Shown here: piece after piece, positions 35,839-56,171 of the stretch
How positions within the stretch are numbered: position 1 is the stretch's first letter
Layout: each line of letters begins with the position of its first letter
DNA from: Coriobacteriia bacterium
GTDB lineage: Bacteria > Actinomycetota > Coriobacteriia > Anaerosomatales > Anaerosomataceae
Direction: 5' to 3'
Assembly: GCA_016938135.1 (NCBI GenBank)
Contig: JAFGVD010000015.1
Span: 1 to 64,000 of the forward strand
DNA: 64,000 nt
Notes under the pieces: model-generated
Databases searched by the model: none
Seen by the model: the letters and a program-made list of their open reading frames with translations, nothing else
What the model was told of the DNA's origin: nothing
Made by a program: the position numbers and the translations under genes

Positions 35839-36495
35839 CTAGCGAGCGCCCACGGCTCCCGGTGACGCAGCGCACTTACACGCCAGCGACTTGATATCGC
35901 AAGGCATGCGTATCTGGCTGATAGACATCCCTTCCGGACGGACGACGCGAACCGCCGGAGTGAGCAGCAGGACGCCCTTCACGCCTGTCTGGCCGAGAAG
36001 ATCCAGCGCGACCTGAACCCACGATGGCGAGCACGCAACTAGCGCGACCTCTATCCCAAGCGCCGGATTCAGATCAGGGAGCTCGGTGATGTGCTGGACC
36101 GTGATGCCGCCAATGACCGTCCCGGCGTCTTCAGGCAGCTCTGAGAAGTAGGCGGCGGGCTTGACGCCATACCTGTCCGGCGGGAAAACGACCTCAAGCG
36201 CGGCAAGCATGGCGGCGCTTCCGATCTTGACGATGGGGTACTCCTCGGAAAGACCAAGGAAGCGCGTGAACTCCTTGAACAGGACCTCCGGCTCATACCC
36301 TGCACCCGGCCTGCCGATGTCGCCCACAAAGGAGATATCGCGACGGACGGTCTCCTCTTTGATGTCGAGCTCCTCGGCGATGGCACGCGACGTGATACGT
36401 GCAGGAGCGCCAACACGGATCAGCTCACTAAGGTAGCAGTGATACAGAGAAAGACGGTACAGGGTGGCATCCGGAGCGGTGCGAGTATCAGACAT
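35839..36495 (-). CDS. Rex-like transcriptional regulator with non-canonical Rossmann motif
   Basis: TSRAIAEELDIKEETVRRDISFVGDIGRPGAGYEPEVLFKEFTRFLGL winged helix; VKIGSAAMLAAL in place of GxGxxG; C-terminal MPCDIKSLACKC. Confidence 0.82.
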   Translation of the reverse strand: MSDTRTAPDATLYRLSLYHCYLSELIRVGAPARITSRAIAEELDIKEETVRRDISFVGDIGRPGAGYEPEVLFKEFTRFLGLSEEYPIVKIGSAAMLAALEVVFPPDRYGVKPAAYFSELPEDAGTVIGGITVQHITELPDLNPALGIEVALVACSPSWVQVALDLLGQTGVKGVLLLTPAVRVVRPEGMSISQIRMPCDIKSLACKCAASPGAVGAR

Positions 36496-40089: not shown

Positions 40090-43000
40090 TCACCAGCCTG
40101 TATCGGTCCCGTCGTACACAACGTGCGAGCCGCACCCGCTCGCAGTGGTGACGGTGCAGTTGTTCTTGGTCATGAACGTGTAGCTCACTGAATAATTGCT
40201 GACGTACACGGTGGTCTTGTCTCCCAGATAAGCGTATCTGCTGGGCATGGTGCCATTCGCATCAGCAATCAGGCGCCCGAGCTTGCTTCCGTGCGGCACG
40301 ATAGTGTGACAACGATAGCAGGCAGCAGATGCGTGCGCACCGGTCGACGCAGTGTGCGCTCTGTTATCTGAAAATCCATTGTGGCAGTTGTCACAGAGGA
40401 GGCCCGTCTGTGTACCGGCGGCGAGCCCGTTGATCGTGTATGGGGTACCTGTCGAAGTAAAAGGCCAATAACCCTTGAGCATGTGCGGCAAAGACGAACC
40501 GTGCGGCCCAACAGCAGCCGAATCCGTACTACGCGGTCCATGGCAATCAGAACAGTACATCGTCTGAGTCCCCACAGCCTTCCAACCGGTATCCATCCAG
40601 TCTGCGTTGAGCGCCTTCGTGGAGCCAAGAGGCGCAACCACGGGATGATACGAAGCATTGTTCGGGTTGAAGTCCAGCGCAACGTTAGTCCACAGGTTGG
40701 CGCCTGTCCCACCCCACGATGTGACATTCGTATTAGCACCCGAGTGGCACTTGAAGCAGATCTGGTACTCAGCGTACTTCGAGCTTGCGGTCGTCGTCTT
40801 GGTGTAGCCGGTGGGAGCTGTCCAGTTGGCACCCGGCGAGTACGTAGGCTCCTGACCCCATGCGCCCCAAAGCGGCGAACCGCTCGCGATAGTACTGGTA
40901 CCCGTGGTATGGATCGTCGAGCCTGAGACGCCATTTCCCGTGGCGTGCGCATCGTGGCAGTCCTCGCACTCGACGTGTTTGTTCGCGCTTATCTCCGCCT
41001 GTGTCTCGTCCGACTCATGGACGCCCGAGTACGTGCCGACTCCATGCTTCTTGATGGACCAGGGAGAAGTCGTGTTGGCGTACGACGAACCAAAGAGCAG
41101 CGAGACGCTCTGCGACCTCGCACTCATAGTCTTAACGCCGTAGCCGTCGCTCAGCGTAGAACCCGTGTGACAGGCGAAGCACAGGTTCTCCTCGGTGGGC
41201 GAACCGGTTGCCCCAAGTGCTGCCGCTATCCTGCTCTCGGCTGACGTGTGCGTCCCTATCTTGTAGGTGCCGGTCTGGAACCACGCGCTGGTCCCGGCGC
41301 TGTCGGTGTGACACTTAGTGCAGTTGGCCTGGAAGGCCGAGCCATCGTCATAGCCCACCTTGGCTACGCTGTTAACAGCGTAGTCGTGCGCCTTGCCTGC
41401 ATATGTGCTGCCGCTGATCACAGGAGTGGCCTCTGAGCCGCCGACCTTCTGCTGCGTGCTCTTGGTCTGCGCCACATCGTGACAACTCACACAGATACCG
41501 TACGGAGCCGACGACGAGTAATCGGTGCTCGCTGCCGTGCCGGTGTTGTCGTCGATGCTGGTACGCAGGTTAGTGCTCTTGTCAGTGAAGTAGTTGTGAT
41601 CGGTGTGGCAGCTCACGCAGGCGAGCTTATTGTCAGAAATCGGGTACGTGGCGGTCGCTCCGGGAGCCATGTCCGACCCACGCACATCATCCGTGTCCAT
41701 AGCATGATGATACGTGTCCGTGGATGAATCCATGACGCTATACGCTGAGTGGCACAGATAGCAGTCCATACCACCGGGAGAGACGCCACTGCCGGGATTG
41801 TGAACGTTGATGCCGCTGTCTGCGGTCATCGTACCGTGACACGTAAGACAAGATGCCGAGTCATCACGATAGTGCCCGCTCAGCTCCGGGACCTTGAGTC
41901 CTACGACCCCAGACCTGACTGTGCGGTCTATGCCCTCTATCTCTGCTCCCGCCGAGACAACCGCATACGCGCTACCATTCCAACCGTAGGCGTCTGTATT
42001 CCCCGACGAAGACCCGCACGTCGTGTGGCAGGTGAAGCAGAACTCGCGAACGCCCAACGCATCGGTCAGGTCGAGTTCCCCGTTCGAATCACCGACTGCG
42101 ATCGTGGTATCGGCGCTCGTCTGAGTGATGACCAGCAGCCCGTTGGGAGTGGCGGAACCATGGGGGTTATGGCAGTCGTAGCACGGAAGCGCCGACTCAG
42201 CTGGCAGCGTGCCTGTATCGCTCTCGATCTTGTGGCCAAAGCGAGTGCTCGTCGTCTGAGTGGCTCCCCCGCCCGCCGTCGACGGATAGTACTGCTTGAT
42301 GTTGTAGCCCGTCGTCGTTCCATCGTGGCAATCGAAACACAGTGTGAAGTCAGTGGTCGTGAAAGTGGAGACAAGGCCGTCGTAGTCGTTGTCAGCACGA
42401 TGCGAAACGTGACAGTAGAGGCAGTCCCCCTCCACGCGCGCCGGATCGGCTGCTGATGCCGGGATCGTCGCGTGCGGGTTGTTTGCGTCACTCAGGTACC
42501 CCGGGAACGTGCCCACCACGGGATAGCCTGTGGCGTCCCTGGTGGGAGACGTCACGTCGTACGTCTCCGTACCCGAGTACCAATCATTCGTGCCGTTGTG
42601 ACATGCTAGACACCAGTCGTTTCCGACGCTCGCCACGGCAACGCCGTTGACGGTCTGCGCAGGCAACATCGTTCGCGTGGCTGGATCGAGGTGTGGGGAG
42701 TGGCAATTAGTGCATACGTCAGTGAGGTCCCCATCAGTGGCCGCCTCTTCGACCGAATGCCCACTCGGCATGGCGGCATCGAAAGAGTTCTCACCAGACT
42801 CCACGTTCTTCTCGGCAAGGGTGCCGTCATGGCATGTCAGGCACACGGATGTCTGACCCGGCGTACTACCTGTCTGTCGCATCAAGATACCCGCGTCAGC
42901 GGCTTCGTGGACCGAATGGCACATCTTACAGAGCGCCGTCCCTGTCGTATACGTCCCGTGCGGCGATGGCGGCTCCCATGCTGCTGACACCGGACCCGCG

Positions 43001-45441
43001 ACTTCTGACTGAGCCGAGATGTTGCCCGCTGCATCGTACGCCTTCACTGCGTAGTAGTAGTTCTGGCCGGCGACGCCTGATTCATCGTCGAACGACAACG
43101 AGGTAGTGTTGCCGATAGGCGTGAACGGACCGGCAGGGTTAAGGGCACGCAGCACCGTGTAGCCCACAGGGTCGCCGCTTGAAGCGGCCCACGCGATGGT
43201 GGCGATCGTGGGATCTGCTACACCTGCGGTGAGGGTGCTTATGACGGGGATACTTGGCGGAGTGACATCAAACGAGCTATCCGCGCTATAGAACTCCATC
43301 GTCTGGACATCATTGCTGTTGAGGCCGTCAGAGACCGTCCCGGCCGCTACGCCGAGCGTATAGAGTACATCGGCCGTCTGCGCACTCGTTGTCAGCAGAA
43401 CCGTACGTGAATCCGCCTGCAGCACAGCGCTGGAGACGGTGAGCCCACCGGAGAGCGTGAAACCGCTGGCGTTCTCGAGCGTGACGCTCTCGCTGAAGAT
43501 CGCCTGAACCGTGGTCGAGTCCACGGGCACCAGCGACTGCAAGGTGGGCTTCACATTGTCCACAAGTAGAGAGCTAAGTGCCGAAAGCTCATTGCCGGCC
43601 GCATCACTGAAGAGGGCGGAGACGATGAAAGTGACTCCGTCCGCCTCGGGAACAGTGAACTCCGGGTCCCAAGTGGCAAACCCGGGGCTGGTGGCGGTAG
43701 CATCCGTCCAGACACTGGAGAAGACCCACTCGTCACCATCGAAATCCCAATAGGCATCGTCAGTCGAACGTTTGACCGACACCTTGACCGAGACTATGCC
43801 CGACAACGCATCGGCAGCAGTACCGGTGATCTGGTACTTGGAACCGGGACTCGCCGAGATGCTCGTTCCGGACGAGGGCTGGGTAAGAACGCAGCTCGTG
43901 GAATCAGGTGCCACGTTGTCCGTCACGACGCCTTCGCCCGACATCGTCGACGTCAGCGTGCTGAAGGTCGTCACGACGGCAGGGGCGTTCACACCGATCC
44001 CACCATATTCGATCTGCGAGCCTATACCTTCGCTGTGTTCGCATGAGGCCGCCACATCATAGGCAACCCACACGTCAACATGACCAGCATCCGGGACGAC
44101 GACACTGAGACCCGTGAATGCCGCGTTCGCTCCCGAACCATACGCCATGCTGCCAAGAAGCGTGTCCTCGGTCGCATCAAAGGTTCCGTTGCCATCATCC
44201 AGGTAGATCTTCACCAGTGAGACCGCTGCCGAGGTCAGGGTGTCGGGGCGGTGGACCGTTATCTTGTTGACTGTCACTGCGCCCTGTGAGGCCGCCAGCC
44301 TGATGTTGTCGATCAACACGCTGGTGGCCGGCGATTTCACGTACCTTACCGACGACGGGATATGATCCGCATTGCTCACCGTCAACCTAGGCGTCTTCAC
44401 TGCGAAAACGGTAGGCGAAGCGGGCATCGGCAGCCCGGATATCGTCTGGACGTTCGTGGTGGTGGTCGCCGTGACCTTGGCATCCATGGTGGCGCCATCT
44501 GTCGCACCGGAGGCAACGACATAGGTGACCAGGTACTGCTGCGACGTATCGGTGATCGCCTCGTTCACGGACACGGTCGCGTTGGCACCGGAGAACGTAG
44601 CCGCCGTGGCGTTCAGCTTGACATCGGTGCCTGCAGTCAGCGCCCCGTCGCCATTGACGTCTCTGTAGACATAGACACCGGACACATTGGCCTCGGGAGA
44701 GGTCTTGCTGTTATTCACTGTGAGCGTATTGATGACCGGCCCGGAAGTATCCCCTGCAGTCCTACGCAGTGAAAAGCGGTTGACCACGACCTCCTGCGAT
44801 GGCACTACATCGGCCGCCGTAGGCTGTCCGCCTGTATGCGCCGAGAAAGTGACCGTGTTAGGCGTCGTCGCCGTGTACTCCACGACGATCTCCATCTGGG
44901 TCACGCGGAGGCTTGCGGCATTGGTGAAGCTACCGATCACGATACCTTCAAGAGCCTGGACATCGGCCCAGCTCCAGCTGCCACCACCCGGACGTTCAGT
45001 GAGCGCTTGCTCGAAAGTCTGATATGCCGAAGAAACCGATGACGCCGATGCATAGGTCGTAGAACCGCTCAGGGCAAGACCCAGCTGGATGCTGGCGAAA
45101 GGCGTTCCAACACTCTTGTAGCCTCTTGCCACGACCCGCAGCGTCACCTTGCTGATAGTGCCGGTGGCCGAGGGGTCCGCCAGGCTTACACTTAGCGGGC
45201 TCGTTCCTGATGTGGTGACGTAGGTCGTGTCACCGTCGTTAGCGGAGATCGCCGTAGCGATCGTCCCCGTGTTCGCCGTCCATCCCGACGAACTCACAAC
45301 CGCATCCGGAGCGAGGCTCAGCGTGGCCGCTTGAGCCAGGGAGGTCGCAAAGGCCATGGCACCCGCAACCAGCACAACAAGCCCGACGCGTACCGCGCGG
45401 GCTAGCTTGTCTCCCTTGTGGATCCACCGACTCAAGCGCAT
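40090..45441 (-). CDS. Giant secreted multiheme c-type cytochrome (19 CxxCH) with Ig-like and FN3 domains
   Basis: Signal peptide; DNVKPTLQSLVPVDSTTVQAIFSESV Ig-like; PPSIPVISTLTAG...YYYAVKAYDAAGN FN3; 19 CxxCH motifs counted by eye (CKMCH ... CYRCH). Confidence 0.92.
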   Translation of the reverse strand: MRLSRWIHKGDKLARAVRVGLVVLVAGAMAFATSLAQAATLSLAPDAVVSSSGWTANTGTIATAISANDGDTTYVTTSGTSPLSVSLADPSATGTISKVTLRVVARGYKSVGTPFASIQLGLALSGSTTYASASSVSSAYQTFEQALTERPGGGSWSWADVQALEGIVIGSFTNAASLRVTQMEIVVEYTATTPNTVTFSAHTGGQPTAADVVPSQEVVVNRFSLRRTAGDTSGPVINTLTVNNSKTSPEANVSGVYVYRDVNGDGALTAGTDVKLNATAATFSGANATVSVNEAITDTSQQYLVTYVVASGATDGATMDAKVTATTTTNVQTISGLPMPASPTVFAVKTPRLTVSNADHIPSSVRYVKSPATSVLIDNIRLAASQGAVTVNKITVHRPDTLTSAAVSLVKIYLDDGNGTFDATEDTLLGSMAYGSGANAAFTGLSVVVPDAGHVDVWVAYDVAASCEHSEGIGSQIEYGGIGVNAPAVVTTFSTLTSTMSGEGVVTDNVAPDSTSCVLTQPSSGTSISASPGSKYQITGTAADALSGIVSVKVSVKRSTDDAYWDFDGDEWVFSSVWTDATATSPGFATWDPEFTVPEADGVTFIVSALFSDAAGNELSALSSLLVDNVKPTLQSLVPVDSTTVQAIFSESVTLENASGFTLSGGLTVSSAVLQADSRTVLLTTSAQTADVLYTLGVAAGTVSDGLNSNDVQTMEFYSADSSFDVTPPSIPVISTLTAGVADPTIATIAWAASSGDPVGYTVLRALNPAGPFTPIGNTTSLSFDDESGVAGQNYYYAVKAYDAAGNISAQSEVAGPVSAAWEPPSPHGTYTTGTALCKMCHSVHEAADAGILMRQTGSTPGQTSVCLTCHDGTLAEKNVESGENSFDAAMPSGHSVEEAATDGDLTDVCTNCHSPHLDPATRTMLPAQTVNGVAVASVGNDWCLACHNGTNDWYSGTETYDVTSPTRDATGYPVVGTFPGYLSDANNPHATIPASAADPARVEGDCLYCHVSHRADNDYDGLVSTFTTTDFTLCFDCHDGTTTGYNIKQYYPSTAGGGATQTTSTRFGHKIESDTGTLPAESALPCYDCHNPHGSATPNGLLVITQTSADTTIAVGDSNGELDLTDALGVREFCFTCHTTCGSSSGNTDAYGWNGSAYAVVSAGAEIEGIDRTVRSGVVGLKVPELSGHYRDDSASCLTCHGTMTADSGINVHNPGSGVSPGGMDCYLCHSAYSVMDSSTDTYHHAMDTDDVRGSDMAPGATATYPISDNKLACVSCHTDHNYFTDKSTNLRTSIDDNTGTAASTDYSSSAPYGICVSCHDVAQTKSTQQKVGGSEATPVISGSTYAGKAHDYAVNSVAKVGYDDGSAFQANCTKCHTDSAGTSAWFQTGTYKIGTHTSAESRIAAALGATGSPTEENLCFACHTGSTLSDGYGVKTMSARSQSVSLLFGSSYANTTSPWSIKKHGVGTYSGVHESDETQAEISANKHVECEDCHDAHATGNGVSGSTIHTTGTSTIASGSPLWGAWGQEPTYSPGANWTAPTGYTKTTTASSKYAEYQICFKCHSGANTNVTSWGGTGANLWTNVALDFNPNNASYHPVVAPLGSTKALNADWMDTGWKAVGTQTMYCSDCHGPRSTDSAAVGPHGSSLPHMLKGYWPFTSTGTPYTINGLAAGTQTGLLCDNCHNGFSDNRAHTASTGAHASAACYRCHTIVPHGSKLGRLIADANGTMPSRYAYLGDKTTVYVSNYSVSYTFMTKNNCTVTTASGCGSHVVYDGTDTGW

Positions 45442-45464
45442 ACCCCCATGCATGCTCTAATCAC

Positions 45465-45493: not shown

Positions 45494-45513
45494 GATGTGA
45501 ATCGTGTCACATC
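45494..45513. promoter_or_regulatory. Candidate Rex or CRP/FNR-type operator upstream of the giant cytochrome
   Basis: GATGTGA-ATCGTG-TCACATC; TGTGA-N6-TCACA core; ~53-72 nt upstream of the proposed start. Confidence 0.55.
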
Positions 45514-45579
45514 CCATAGTGACATCTTCGGCAGCTTCTTACCAGGTCTTAACGCTCCTCAGAAGCGCGATGTATCGGT

Positions 45580-48887: not shown

Positions 48888-48913
48888 ACGGCCCCCTCTT
48901 GCGAGGGGGCCGT
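48888..48913. terminator. Strong bidirectional terminator between convergent cytochrome genes
   Basis: ACGGCCCCCTC-TTGC-GAGGGGGCCGT perfect stem with 4-nt loop; minus strand followed by TTTCTGT. Confidence 0.85.
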
Positions 48914-48945: not shown

Positions 48946-49851
48946 CTAGAAGTCGAGACCAACACCTGTGGATGCGTCAGCACGGTGGCACTTCAAGCAC
49001 GCGCCGTCCTCGGAAGGATCGGCCGCACCCGTTGCGCTACCCACTGAAGCGAAGTTGACCGCGCTCAACAGGAAGCGATTGCCGCTCGTGTAGTGCGGGA
49101 AGTTGTCGGCAGCAGAGGCGCCGTCGGTCTCGCCCGCATCGTGACAGCTACGGCAATACGTGCTCGGTGCCCACGCAACAGTCGAATTGGCCGCGATTGT
49201 CGCCTTACTGTTCGCATAGTTGGCTGTGGCGTCACCCATGATGTGCATGTTTGCAGTAGCGTCGTCATCGTAGTCATTGGCCCAGTACGTGTGGCACTGC
49301 GAGCAGAACGCCGTGACGACACCATTGCGATCAGTACCGGTTGTGAAGTCGTAGGTCGTCTCAGCTGCAGTCACAGTACCGGACTGACCTCCGATAGCGG
49401 ACTTCAGGATCTTGGTGTTGATGTCACCTGCCGCGGTCGTTGAGATCGCACCTGCACCGTGAACGGTGTGGCAGTCGACGCACGTAGAACCGGAGCCTGC
49501 ATAGTGGTTGTTCTCGTAGTCGGTGGTGTAGTTTGCAGCGACGCTGTCGTACACCTTGACACTGGACACGGAGTTGGTGATATGGCAATACTCGCACGCG
49601 TTTGCAACCGTACCGCGCAGCAGTACTTCACCGCCGGCAGTCGCACGGTGGACCGCATGGCAGACAGCGCACTTGACGGTAGTCGTGCCATAGCCTGCAT
49701 GCGGGGTCTGAACAGTGGCGTTGGCACCAGTAGTGCCCCAAGCGGAGTACTGGTCGCCGTCAACGCCTGCGACGGCAAGTGCTGTGCCGGCGAACATCAT
49801 GGTGAACGCGCAAGCAAGTACAAGTACGATGGCTAGCTTCTTACTAGTCAT
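48946..49851 (-). CDS. Secreted hexaheme c-type cytochrome, OmcS-like layout (candidate nanowire subunit)
   Basis: Signal peptide MTSKKLAIVLVLACAFTMMFAGTALA; six CxxCH (CAVCH, CEYCH, CVDCH, CSQCH, CRSCH, CLKCH) plus exactly six other His; RBS GAAGGGAG before ATG. Confidence 0.9.
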   Translation of the reverse strand: MTSKKLAIVLVLACAFTMMFAGTALAVAGVDGDQYSAWGTTGANATVQTPHAGYGTTTVKCAVCHAVHRATAGGEVLLRGTVANACEYCHITNSVSSVKVYDSVAANYTTDYENNHYAGSGSTCVDCHTVHGAGAISTTAAGDINTKILKSAIGGQSGTVTAAETTYDFTTGTDRNGVVTAFCSQCHTYWANDYDDDATANMHIMGDATANYANSKATIAANSTVAWAPSTYCRSCHDAGETDGASAADNFPHYTSGNRFLLSAVNFASVGSATGAADPSEDGACLKCHRADASTGVGLDF

Positions 49852-49950
49852 TGAATCTCCCTTCGAATGAATCCCCATCATAATTTGATTTCACCTCCCC
49901 CGTTGAAGAATCAGATACTCGCAAAGCGAGGAATCTCCCCATTCACCCCA

Positions 49951-49970
49951 GCTGTGAATTGCTTCACAGC
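49951..49970. promoter_or_regulatory. Candidate Rex or CRP/FNR-type operator upstream of the hexaheme cytochrome
   Basis: GCTGTGAA-TTGC-TTCACAGC perfect 8-bp inverted repeat; ~100-119 nt upstream of the start codon. Confidence 0.65.
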
Positions 49971-50040
49971 CCTTAAGAACACTATCGGCAGACTACCACT
50001 CACCGATAACGGCAAACAAGCAAAACGACCTATCTACCCA

Positions 50041-51252
50041 TCAGAAATTGTCATCCGGGTGTTCGCCGACCTCCATATTCGAGAGCTCGGACGACTTTCG
50101 ACTCTTGGATACCTTCATCATGACCGCCACGAAAAGCAGCAATACGAGCGGAACCGCGCAGACCCACACTGGTCCCACGAGCGCCCTGCGCACCGTAGGG
50201 CCAAGCTCTGTAGATCCGCTGTCTGGTATGCGAACGATCTGAACCCGAGCGTTGGCGGTGTCAGCCACAACGAACCAATCGCGCTCAGTGTCATAGGCGA
50301 TGCCTGTTGGGTATGCAAAGAGACCGTCGCTTTCGCCGAAATCTCCGTAACGGTCGATTATCGAACCGTCGGTCTTATCGACAACGACCATGTTGAAACC
50401 GAACGGATCCACCAAAACGAGGCGTTCATTTGCATCCATACACATACCGGCGGGCAGCTGAAGCCCTGTGCCGCTGGTCTCCTCGGAGGTCTCCTCACCC
50501 ATGGCCTGATTGCCTCCGCCGGTGATACCTGCATCTGTCGTCCAGAGAAGATCTCCTTCCGAGCTGAAGGCCTTGACCCTGGCGTTAAGAGTGTCTGCAA
50601 CATAGATGACACCGTCGGCGTCAACGACGATTCCTTGCGGCAAATCCAGCTGCTCCAGCGAACTGCCTCTCCCACCCCAGCTCCCCACGGATTCGCCCTC
50701 GACAGTGAACACCGATACACCGGCCGGCCCCGTGACATACACACGGTCTCCCGCCACCTCGCAATCAAGCGGCTGACTGACCTCCCATGATCGAAGCAGT
50801 TCACCTTGCCGACTCAAGACAAGCAGGCGATCAGCGCCGTTGGCGCACACGTAGACCTCGCCGTCCTGACTCACAGAGATGCCCTTGGGCACCACCCAAG
50901 GGATATCCGCGACCACGCCAGAGAGCTCAATTCGGCGTCGAAGCGTGCCGTCGGGCCCAAACTCGAAGATCGAATTCAGCTGGGTGTCACTCACCCAGAT
51001 CGCACCGCCGGAAGATATCTCAACGTGATCGGGCGCGATAAACTGCTCTTCCGCAGACGGGCCGAATCCATAGATCGAACGAACCCACTCCAGACCCTCC
51101 GGCAGACGAACCTCATCAGGACTCCCCACTGGCTCCAGAAGAGTAGCGATGAAGTAGCCCAGCCCACCAAGCAGCATGAGCAATACCAGCAGTATCGCGA
51201 TGAGCCCAGCCCGCAGGCCCATACGATTGCCGCCTGCGCTATGACTACTCAT
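50041..51252 (-). CDS. NHL-repeat beta-propeller, membrane-anchored
   Basis: TM ILLVLLMLLGGLGYFIATLL; blades FIAPDHVEISSGGAIWVSDTQLNSIFEFGPDG, LPQGIVVDADGVIYVADTLNARVKAFSSEG. Confidence 0.88.
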   Translation of the reverse strand: MSSHSAGGNRMGLRAGLIAILLVLLMLLGGLGYFIATLLEPVGSPDEVRLPEGLEWVRSIYGFGPSAEEQFIAPDHVEISSGGAIWVSDTQLNSIFEFGPDGTLRRRIELSGVVADIPWVVPKGISVSQDGEVYVCANGADRLLVLSRQGELLRSWEVSQPLDCEVAGDRVYVTGPAGVSVFTVEGESVGSWGGRGSSLEQLDLPQGIVVDADGVIYVADTLNARVKAFSSEGDLLWTTDAGITGGGNQAMGEETSEETSGTGLQLPAGMCMDANERLVLVDPFGFNMVVVDKTDGSIIDRYGDFGESDGLFAYPTGIAYDTERDWFVVADTANARVQIVRIPDSGSTELGPTVRRALVGPVWVCAVPLVLLLFVAVMMKVSKSRKSSELSNMEVGEHPDDNF

Positions 51253-52021
51253 CGCTACCGCCCCTCTCAAGGGCCGATAGCCCCTCCAGTGCCTGTTGGA
51301 AATCGGGAATCATGCTCAGCGCCTTCTCATAGTCAGCGCGGGCAGCGGCTGTATCTCCAACGGATGACTCAAGATCGCCGCGCCAAGCGAGCACATCTGC
51401 CATCGTGGGGAGCTCTTCTAGGGCACCGTCGAGCGCAGCGATGGCCTCATCAACCCGATCAAGGCCCTCGAGAATCTGCGCCCTCAGCAACCACGCGTCG
51501 ACGATCTCTTCGGAAGAGAACGGCGAGGTGATCCCCATTGCAGCTTGCTTGTCGATGGTTGCCTGTTTCTCTGCTTGCGCTTCAGTCAGCGCACGCTCCG
51601 CAACACCAAGCGCCCCCTCGCTGTCACCGGTCGCATCAAGAAGACGAGCCTCCTCGATCGAGACCACCGCGGAGGCCGTGCTTTCCGCGGCTCGATACGC
51701 ATTCATAACAGACGTCGCCTTCGAGTAACGTTCGACCTCGATGAGCGCGCGCATGTACTGGGCCACTACTGTCGGGTCATTCGGAGTCGCCTTGAAAGAC
51801 CTGTCGAGGGTGGCTATCTCCTTCTCGGCAAGAGTACGTGGCGCCTGTCCGGTCAGGACGCCTGTATAGACGACGTAGATGACAGCGGTCAGCACGAAGA
51901 CCAACATCACAAGCACGGCCACCAACAATCGCCGCACCCAGGGGTCTGCCGCAGGCGCCTTTCTGCTACGACGGGAAGTCTCTTGCTCCATGGATGTAGA
52001 ACCTCGTTCCAATGTCGACAT
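51245..52021 (-). CDS. Membrane-anchored TPR protein
   Basis: TM VAVLVMLVFVLTAVIYVVY; TPR-like VDEAIAALDGALEELPTMADVLAWRGDLESSVGDTAAARADYEKAL. Confidence 0.8.
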   Translation of the reverse strand: MSTLERGSTSMEQETSRRSRKAPAADPWVRRLLVAVLVMLVFVLTAVIYVVYTGVLTGQAPRTLAEKEIATLDRSFKATPNDPTVVAQYMRALIEVERYSKATSVMNAYRAAESTASAVVSIEEARLLDATGDSEGALGVAERALTEAQAEKQATIDKQAAMGITSPFSSEEIVDAWLLRAQILEGLDRVDEAIAALDGALEELPTMADVLAWRGDLESSVGDTAAARADYEKALSMIPDFQQALEGLSALERGGSDE

Positions 52022-52145
52022 GATGAAGAACCCTGCGCGAACTCGAACTCACTTGATACTCACGGGAATGAAAGCGACGGCAAGTCGTCCCTGCGACAGA
52101 AGATGCAACACGCTTCTTTGAGGCCCCCTAGATATTGCACGATCG

Positions 52146-53624: not shown

Positions 53625-53728
53625 GCGTGAAGACCGGCGCACAAAGACAGTGCGCCCAGTCAGCAGTCTAACATGCCCCCGATGCCTGTTGAATACTTAA
53701 CGGTACTTCGACGTCGACCACGCATCCC

Positions 53729-54898: not shown

Positions 54899-55533
54899 TC
54901 GGCTCCAAGAGCAGTGAGGGCGTCACGCGCTTCAAGAAGATCAGGCGCGTAGCGAAGGGCCTCTTCGTAACTTGCTATAGCATCGTCAGTGCGACCGAGC
55001 TTCTCGTAGCAAAGACCGGCCAGATACTGGAGGTCGGCGAGTTCCGGACGGGCCTCCGCAACAGGCTCCACGGCGACCAGCGCGGACTTGTACTGGCCCT
55101 TCTCGATGTAGTACTCACCCAGGGCTTTGGCCGCAAGCGCGTGATCCGGCGCTATCTCAAGCACTTCCCAGAAGGTCTGCTCGGCGAGCTTCTGCTCACC
55201 CGTCTGCATGTAGATGACCGCCTTGTTGTACAGCGCGGCGGTGTTGCCGGGGTCCTCCACCAGCACCAGGTCGTACTGCTCGACGGCCTTGTCGTACTCC
55301 TCGTTCTGTTGATAGGCGAAACCGAGCGAGAGGCGATCGTCGGTGTTGTCCGGATCGGCCGAGACCTTCTGCTCCCAGTCCTCGACGGCATAGGTCTCAG
55401 GGGTCACCGGGCCTTCATCAACGATGAGACCTCGAAGCATCCATCCGCCAAGACCCACAACAGCGAGAAGCAAGATGAGCACAAGCAGCGCGAGCCACGC
55501 GGGAACGAGCTGATCCTCATGATCCGAGGTCAT
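54895..55533 (-). CDS. Membrane-anchored TPR protein
   Basis: TM WLALLVLILLLAVVGLGGWML; YDKAVEQYDLVLVEDPGNTAALYNKAVIYMQTG repeats. Confidence 0.88.
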   Translation of the reverse strand: MTSDHEDQLVPAWLALLVLILLLAVVGLGGWMLRGLIVDEGPVTPETYAVEDWEQKVSADPDNTDDRLSLGFAYQQNEEYDKAVEQYDLVLVEDPGNTAALYNKAVIYMQTGEQKLAEQTFWEVLEIAPDHALAAKALGEYYIEKGQYKSALVAVEPVAEARPELADLQYLAGLCYEKLGRTDDAIASYEEALRYAPDLLEARDALTALGAE

Positions 55534-56171
55534 CGCTCCCCGCCTTGAGCCAGGTAGAACGAGAGTATCTGCAGATCCGTGGACATACAGACCTGCCGCA
55601 CGGCCACGTCATCAGGGACCTGGAGACGCACGGGTGCAAGGTTGAGGATCGCTTTGATGCCTGCACCCACCACGCGGTCCACCAGCGCCTGGGTCTCAGC
55701 GGCAGGCGTGGCCATGATCACGATCTCCACGCCCTCCTCGGCAAGTCCCGCGTCAAGTTCGTCTACCGACCTGATCGTCACGCCGTCAGCATCCGTCCCG
55801 ATCTTATCGGGACTCGCGTCGAACACCGCCACGATGTCAAACCCTCTGTCCGAGAAACCGGTGTAGCTCTTAAGGGCGCCGCCAAGGCGTCCGTAGCCCA
55901 CGATGGCAGCGCGGCGAAGCTCGGATACGCCAAGCGACTTGGAGACGTGCGCGATAAGCGCCTCGACGTCGTAGCCGATGCCACGCGTTCCAAGCTCACC
56001 GAGATATGACAGATCCTTGCGCACCTGCGCGGCGTTGGTTCCCACCATCTCGGCGATCTCCACCGAGCTGATGACCGGCTTGCGATCTTGCTGCGCCTGA
56101 AGCAGGCAGCGCAGATAGACGGGCAGCCTTTGGATCGTTGTCTCAGGTATTTGCGTGCGTTCCATCATCAC
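55530..56171 (-). CDS. rex: Redox-sensing transcriptional repressor Rex
   Basis: RKDLSYLGELGTRGIGYDVEALIAHVSKSLGV, AAIVGYGRLGGALKSYTGF, NLAPVRLQVPDDVAVRQVCMSTDLQILSFYLAQ. Confidence 0.95.
   Translation of the reverse strand: MMMERTQIPETTIQRLPVYLRCLLQAQQDRKPVISSVEIAEMVGTNAAQVRKDLSYLGELGTRGIGYDVEALIAHVSKSLGVSELRRAAIVGYGRLGGALKSYTGFSDRGFDIVAVFDASPDKIGTDADGVTIRSVDELDAGLAEEGVEIVIMATPAAETQALVDRVVGAGIKAILNLAPVRLQVPDDVAVRQVCMSTDLQILSFYLAQGGER

Follow-up and report, generated by a model that had tools for sequence, protein, structure and literature searches.

The window analyzed here, a stretch of 64,000 nt from the 2.13-Mb genome of a Coriobacteriia bacterium (genome G000), carries on its minus strand a string of genes in the order O-antigen-ligase-like, rex, TPR, NHL, 14-heme cytochrome, TPR, NHL, and, after a gap, hexaheme cytochrome (cyt6). 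The features of interest are summarized in Table 1. Six CXXCH motifs were counted in the product of the last gene, which bears out its earlier description as a hexaheme cytochrome. The gene has two in-frame ATG starts, at 49881 and 49851, with a Shine-Dalgarno-like sequence before each. Starts about 30 nt apart (window 49840-49881) are also seen at loci L022 to L026 and L042, and relatives also have a short N-terminal extension that ends in K-G-x-S-M ahead of the signal peptide.

The gap between the NHL-repeat gene (50041-51270, minus strand) and cyt6 spans 159 nt (49882-50040). It had been called the only sizeable non-coding gap in the gene string; it is the largest, but it is not the sole one, as gaps of 124 nt (52022-52145) and 86 nt (53643-53728) are also present. 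The NHL-gap-hexaheme order, often with a TPR gene ahead, is common to several genomes of the order, and rex adjoins this arrangement in few of the genomes inspected.

Table 1. Coordinates of the features at and around the palindrome (window positions unless another contig is given)
Feature	Position	Strand	Remark
Giant multiheme cytochrome gene	40090..45453	-	1787 aa; probable second target
Second perfect TGTGA-N6-TCACA	45496..45511	-	before the 1787-aa multiheme cytochrome gene
Tentative -10 GAAGAT	45524..45529	-	17 nt after TTAAGA (45547-45552); suggested by conservation in G001
Probable terminator hairpin GCCCCCTC-TTGC-GAGGGGGC	48891..48910	-	3' of cyt6
Hexaheme c-type cytochrome gene (cyt6)	48946..49881	-	311 aa; probable target of the palindrome
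Leader between palindrome and start	49882..49950	-	CUCGC-UUU-GCGAG hairpin region and Shine-Dalgarno GGGGGAGGTGA
Palindrome GCTGTGAA-TTGC-TTCACAGC	49951-49970		as read on the forward strand
Palindromic operator candidate GCTGTGAA-GCAA-TTCACAGC	49951..49970	-	transcript strand; core TGTGA-N6-TCACA at 49953-49968
Alternative -10 GATAGT	49981-49986	-	putative
Tentative extended -10 TGG-TAGTCT	49990..49995	-	suggested by conservation with G001
Tentative -35 TTGTTT	50014..50019	-	TAGTCT follows after 18 nt; block shared with G001
rex paralogue 1 (Rex1)	55530-56171	-	213 aa; operon upstream; not the favored regulator of the palindrome
CRP-type regulator L016	G000:C26:43793-44560		256 aa; cNMP-binding domain and Crp-type HTH

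Within the gap, the window reads GCTGTGAATTGCTTCACAGC, an 8-bp perfect inverted repeat at exactly the position given in the preliminary description. It lies 99 nt from ATG 49851, in agreement with the roughly 100 nt first reported, or 69 nt from ATG 49881. Two operator likenesses had been proposed for it, and the sequence confirms both. The palindrome is an exact instance of TGTGA-N6-TCACA, the palindromic consensus of CRP/FNR-family operators. Its 16-bp core, TGTGAAN4TTCACA, is also identical to that of the published Rex operator (ROP) consensus TTGTGAAN4TTCACAA (PMC8376106), from which it departs only in its outer pair, C/G instead of T/A. The full 18-bp Rex operator is therefore not present, the palindrome having two mismatches to TTGTGAN6TCACAA.

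Inverted repeats of the 8-4-8 type with perfect arms, whatever their letters, number six in the 64 kb; what is rare here is not the symmetry but the sequence. No other TGTGAAN4TTCACA without mismatches occurs in the window, and allowing up to one mismatch adds only 45496-45511. The genome-wide motif scan proposed earlier was carried out as pattern searches with their controls, and it returned exactly three perfect TGTGA-N6-TCACA sites in the 2.13 Mb, with none for the reversed pattern. With one mismatch allowed, there were 45 sites versus 18 for the control. The everted-control rate (about 0.44 per genome) predicts some 3 × 10−5 perfect sites for a gap of 159 nt. Two of the three perfect sites precede multiheme cytochrome genes, of which the genome has about 11 that are recognizable (Pfam matches plus the window's own).

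The second of these sites is 4.4 kb from the palindrome and 43 nt upstream of the giant cytochrome gene. In G001, the one same-genus genome compared, it is kept with a single mismatch as TGTGGCAGGATTCACA. The tentative -10 of the giant cytochrome gene sits just 5′ of the site, and the geometry (TTAAGA-17-GAAGAT, then the site) is the same as that at cyt6, where a promoter TTGTTT-18-TAGTCT is tentatively placed upstream of the palindrome from two sequences, the window and G001. With either candidate -10 of cyt6, TAGTCT or GATAGT, the palindrome would lie within the transcript, between a few and about 20 nt from its 5′ end. Given the probable terminator hairpin that follows cyt6, a promoter within the gap would yield a one-gene transcript. 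The palindrome was itself considered as an intrinsic terminator and rejected, since no T-run follows it on either strand. The hairpin region and Shine-Dalgarno sequence of the leader are conserved in G001 and similar in G018. In its longer form, AGAU-UC-CUCGC-UUU-GCGAG-U-AUCU (49890-49945), the leader hairpin shows pairing-preserving base changes in G001, G018, and L031, and it could sequester the ribosome site.

Conservation of the palindrome itself is a separate matter. G001 contains no perfect TGTGA-N6-TCACA, and its cyt6 leader has lost the right half of the palindrome with the promoter, leader, and Shine-Dalgarno sequence kept, so the cyt6 site is either recent or was lost there. Among the other cyt6 orthologue leaders inspected, none had a site with fewer than two mismatches, and the site is thus not kept at the orthologous promoter. 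Because it is not conserved in G001, we infer the function of the palindrome from the wider behavior of its motif.

For this purpose, 41 genomes of the order were compared, the named relatives being Coriobacteriia MAGs. They contain 120 perfect TGTGA-N6-TCACA sites, compared with 13 for the reversed pattern and 18 for the everted control TCACA-N6-TGTGA, which has identical half-sites. Many of these sites are intergenic. Within 260 nt of 13 of the 72 sites inspected (14 counting the window's giant cytochrome), a gene begins whose protein has four or more CXXCH motifs; this holds for none of 47 control sites (0/17 everted, 0/30 Rex-type; Fisher P = 0.0015). None was found near 1,273 background positions, which were taken from loci surrounding other motifs and do not represent a random sample. 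Relative to candidate promoters, seven of the 11 cytochrome-linked sites in relatives fall within the core promoter or at the start, with centers at -19, -21, or -27 in five and at about 0 in two (overall -27 to 0), and three lie at -51/-52. The palindrome is best read as an example of a CRP motif that is linked to multiheme cytochrome genes in this order. At one locus in a relative (G014:C1:413045-413082), two perfect sites are paired, with six bases between them.

The genome also encodes a suitable protein. L016 has an R-E-x-x-x-R recognition helix, SRETASR, that is identical in 30 of 30 orthologues, and orthologues of its type are present in nearly all of the 41 genomes. Profile and PDB searches match L016 to E. 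coli CRP and to mycobacterial CRP/FNR-type structures. Among its closest solved structures are 3d0s, 3i54, and 3r6s/4byy, which we take to be the CRP of Mycobacterium tuberculosis (Rv3676) and of the Corynebacterium GlxR type. These actinobacterial CRPs read the same half-site as that of TGTGA-N6-TCACA, and L016 shares their domain architecture; it differs in its E. coli CRP-like helix and in a preferred center of C...G. Around crp itself, one-mismatch sites resembling TGTGnC-N4-GTCACA (TGTGTCTCAAGTCACA is an example) recur in an arrangement of the autoregulatory type. They are close to the gene start in about nine relatives; in other genomes, among them the one studied here and G001, the site directly follows crp. 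The everted control gave no matches around crp genes.

Some genomes with perfect sites, such as G035, lack a close L016 orthologue, and the genome studied here encodes a second CRP/FNR-type protein, L017. Both observations could be accommodated if L017, or an unrelated factor, were the protein that binds TGTGA-N6-TCACA. We consider this very unlikely, as the motif flanks crp genes of the L016 type and the L017 helix, PETLSR, is unlike that of L016. Helices of this E..SR type (FNR/DNR) are expected to read TTGAT-like half-sites.

Based on these data, we predict, with reasonable but not high confidence, that the palindrome is an operator for the CRP-type regulator L016, located downstream of the tentative cytochrome promoter and probably repressing it. 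L016 would bind TGTGA-N6-TCACA through the SRETASR helix, possibly with a cyclic nucleotide as its ligand, which its domain makes plausible. Once bound just downstream of the promoter, it would block initiation or early elongation, acting as a repressor or roadblock, and the blocked product would be the single-gene hexaheme cytochrome transcript. The matching 45496 site would do likewise for the giant cytochrome gene. In Shewanella oneidensis, the cAMP receptor protein (CRP) activates omcA/mtrC from -61.5/-60.5 (PMC4417206). The two systems are alike in placing related TGTGA-N6-TCACA sites for a CRP-family protein at multiheme cytochrome promoters. They belong to unrelated phyla, however, and the position of the window's site at or downstream of the tentative promoter suggests repression rather than the activation seen in Shewanella.

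The center of the palindrome, TGTGAA...TTCACA, coincides with the Rex core, which counts against the CRP reading, and Rex was the regulator preferred in the preliminary description, as a link between cytochrome expression and NADH/NAD+. By that account, Rex1, whose gene lies 5.6 kb upstream on the same strand as first reported, represses the hexaheme cytochrome at high NAD+. Rex1 is a full Rex by NCBIfam with the canonical helix AAQVRKDLSYLGELGTRG, and its gene belongs to the same gene string in both the window and G001. One Anaerosomatales cytochrome cluster has also been found to include a Rex gene (PMC9686372), making the account tempting. The comparative data nevertheless make it unlikely. 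A Rex-domain protein is encoded in 40 of the 41 genomes, most of which have three, but the core TGTGAAN4TTCACA is not enriched in them (three sites versus one control), and three is about what a CRP-type motif with a free center would yield. In a logo of 73 TGTGA-N6-TCACA sites, C accounts for 49% and A for 14% of position 6, A6 and T11 occur together in just three sites, and the T/A pair of the Rex operator does not appear outside the palindrome. The nearest relative, G001, moreover retains a nearly identical rex operon, with a Rex that is 85% identical and has the same recognition helix, but has no such palindrome.

A different motif appears to serve Rex in this clade. TTGTAACN4GTTACAA, with up to one mismatch, occurs at 117 sites in 39 of the 41 genomes, compared with one control site, and its neighbors include rex2, NuoA/NuoB, a formate dehydrogenase, a hydrogenase small subunit, and short-chain dehydrogenases. 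Genes of these NADH-linked kinds are typical Rex targets, and it is this motif, not the palindrome's core, that is found at them. Upstream of the stand-alone rex2, TTGTAAC-N4/5-GTTAC lies inside a promoter-like TTG-17-TACnAT in about 12 genomes. TTGTAACN4GTTACAA occurs twice in the genome studied here, ahead of rex2 and at C11:55080 (G000:C4:6531-6548 and C11:55080-55097; the sites in relatives are at L283 to L312). TTGTAACN4GTTACAA is probably the Rex operator of the clade, differing from TTGTGAAN4TTCACAA. As the motif is tied to rex2, whose product has the helix PAQIRRDLTHFGSFGKRG rather than AAQVRKDLSYLGELGTRG, Rex1 could differ in specificity; the regions just ahead of rex1 and rex3 yielded no recurrent Rex motif. 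The window also encodes Rex3, a divergent third paralogue (35839-36495, helix EETVRRDISFVGDIGRPGAGY), close to ccsA/resB, genes of cytochrome maturation; its Rex N-terminal domain is recognized by Pfam, but the protein falls below every NCBIfam Rex cut-off.

CRP is preferred to Rex because the Rex core is non-enriched and another Rex-type motif is present. The comparative data point to a CRP/FNR homologue at the palindrome with Rex sites elsewhere, an outcome that the preliminary description had named as one that would overturn its view; on these grounds, the CRP/FNR half of its operator reading is retained, as predicted binding, and its preferred Rex half is set aside.

The palindrome may instead act as RNA, with its resemblance to an operator being incidental. 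It would then form a stem-loop in the 5′ leader, closed by a GCAA (GNRA) tetraloop, that stabilizes or regulates the cytochrome mRNA. The stem is strong (local z about -2) and lies at the 5′ end of the putative transcript. The corresponding position holds a different hairpin in G001 and sequence-unrelated hairpins in several relatives. At 45496, A-U pairs of the stem are replaced by G-U in G001, which leaves the stem intact. Across 17 leaders, however, the best local hairpin was on average no stronger than in shuffled sequences (mean z -0.40), and in relatives the motif often falls within the promoter or ahead of it, at positions that are not transcribed. A hairpin would also leave the specific letters, the second site, and the cytochrome association of the motif unexplained. 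We regard this alternative as decidedly unlikely. A riboswitch or other conserved RNA was likewise rejected as the identity of the palindrome: Rfam gave no match, and comparison with shuffled leaders across the clade did not support one.

The switching of the many multiheme cytochromes of uncultured Coriobacteriia is poorly understood. Anaerosomatales isolates have 17 to 18 of them, and one isolate grows on Fe(III) (PMC9686372). The comparative data suggest that such genes are under control of the CRP type, probably gated by nucleotides, and they supply two clade motifs open to testing: TGTGA-N6-TCACA, proposed for CRP, and TTGTAAC-N4-GTTACAA, proposed for Rex. At six cytochrome-linked sites in relatives, the CRP-type motif is followed by a c-di-GMP-II riboswitch above the Rfam gathering score, and the Rfam search found no such riboswitch at the window's own cytochromes. 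It is quite possible, if short of probable, that multiheme cytochrome genes are under a two-layer nucleotide-second-messenger gate, made up of a CRP-type repressor together with, in several relatives, a riboswitch right after its site, and that the window's palindromes represent the DNA layer alone. In Geobacter, cyclic-dinucleotide (cGAMP) riboswitches are likewise reported to precede cytochromes (PMC6456294, PMC8835794). The Coriobacteriia differ from the Geobacter systems so described in that the riboswitch is of the c-di-GMP-II class and is combined with a CRP-type operator, and in that the window's cytochromes have none. Our literature search found no paper joining the terms c-di-GMP-II riboswitch and multiheme cytochrome. 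The riboswitches in question (RF01786, 60 to 71 bits) lie directly between TGTGA-N6-TCACA and the multiheme cytochrome gene at L160, L161, L173, L157, L064, and L070, in the relatives G006, G002, G010, G012, and G004.
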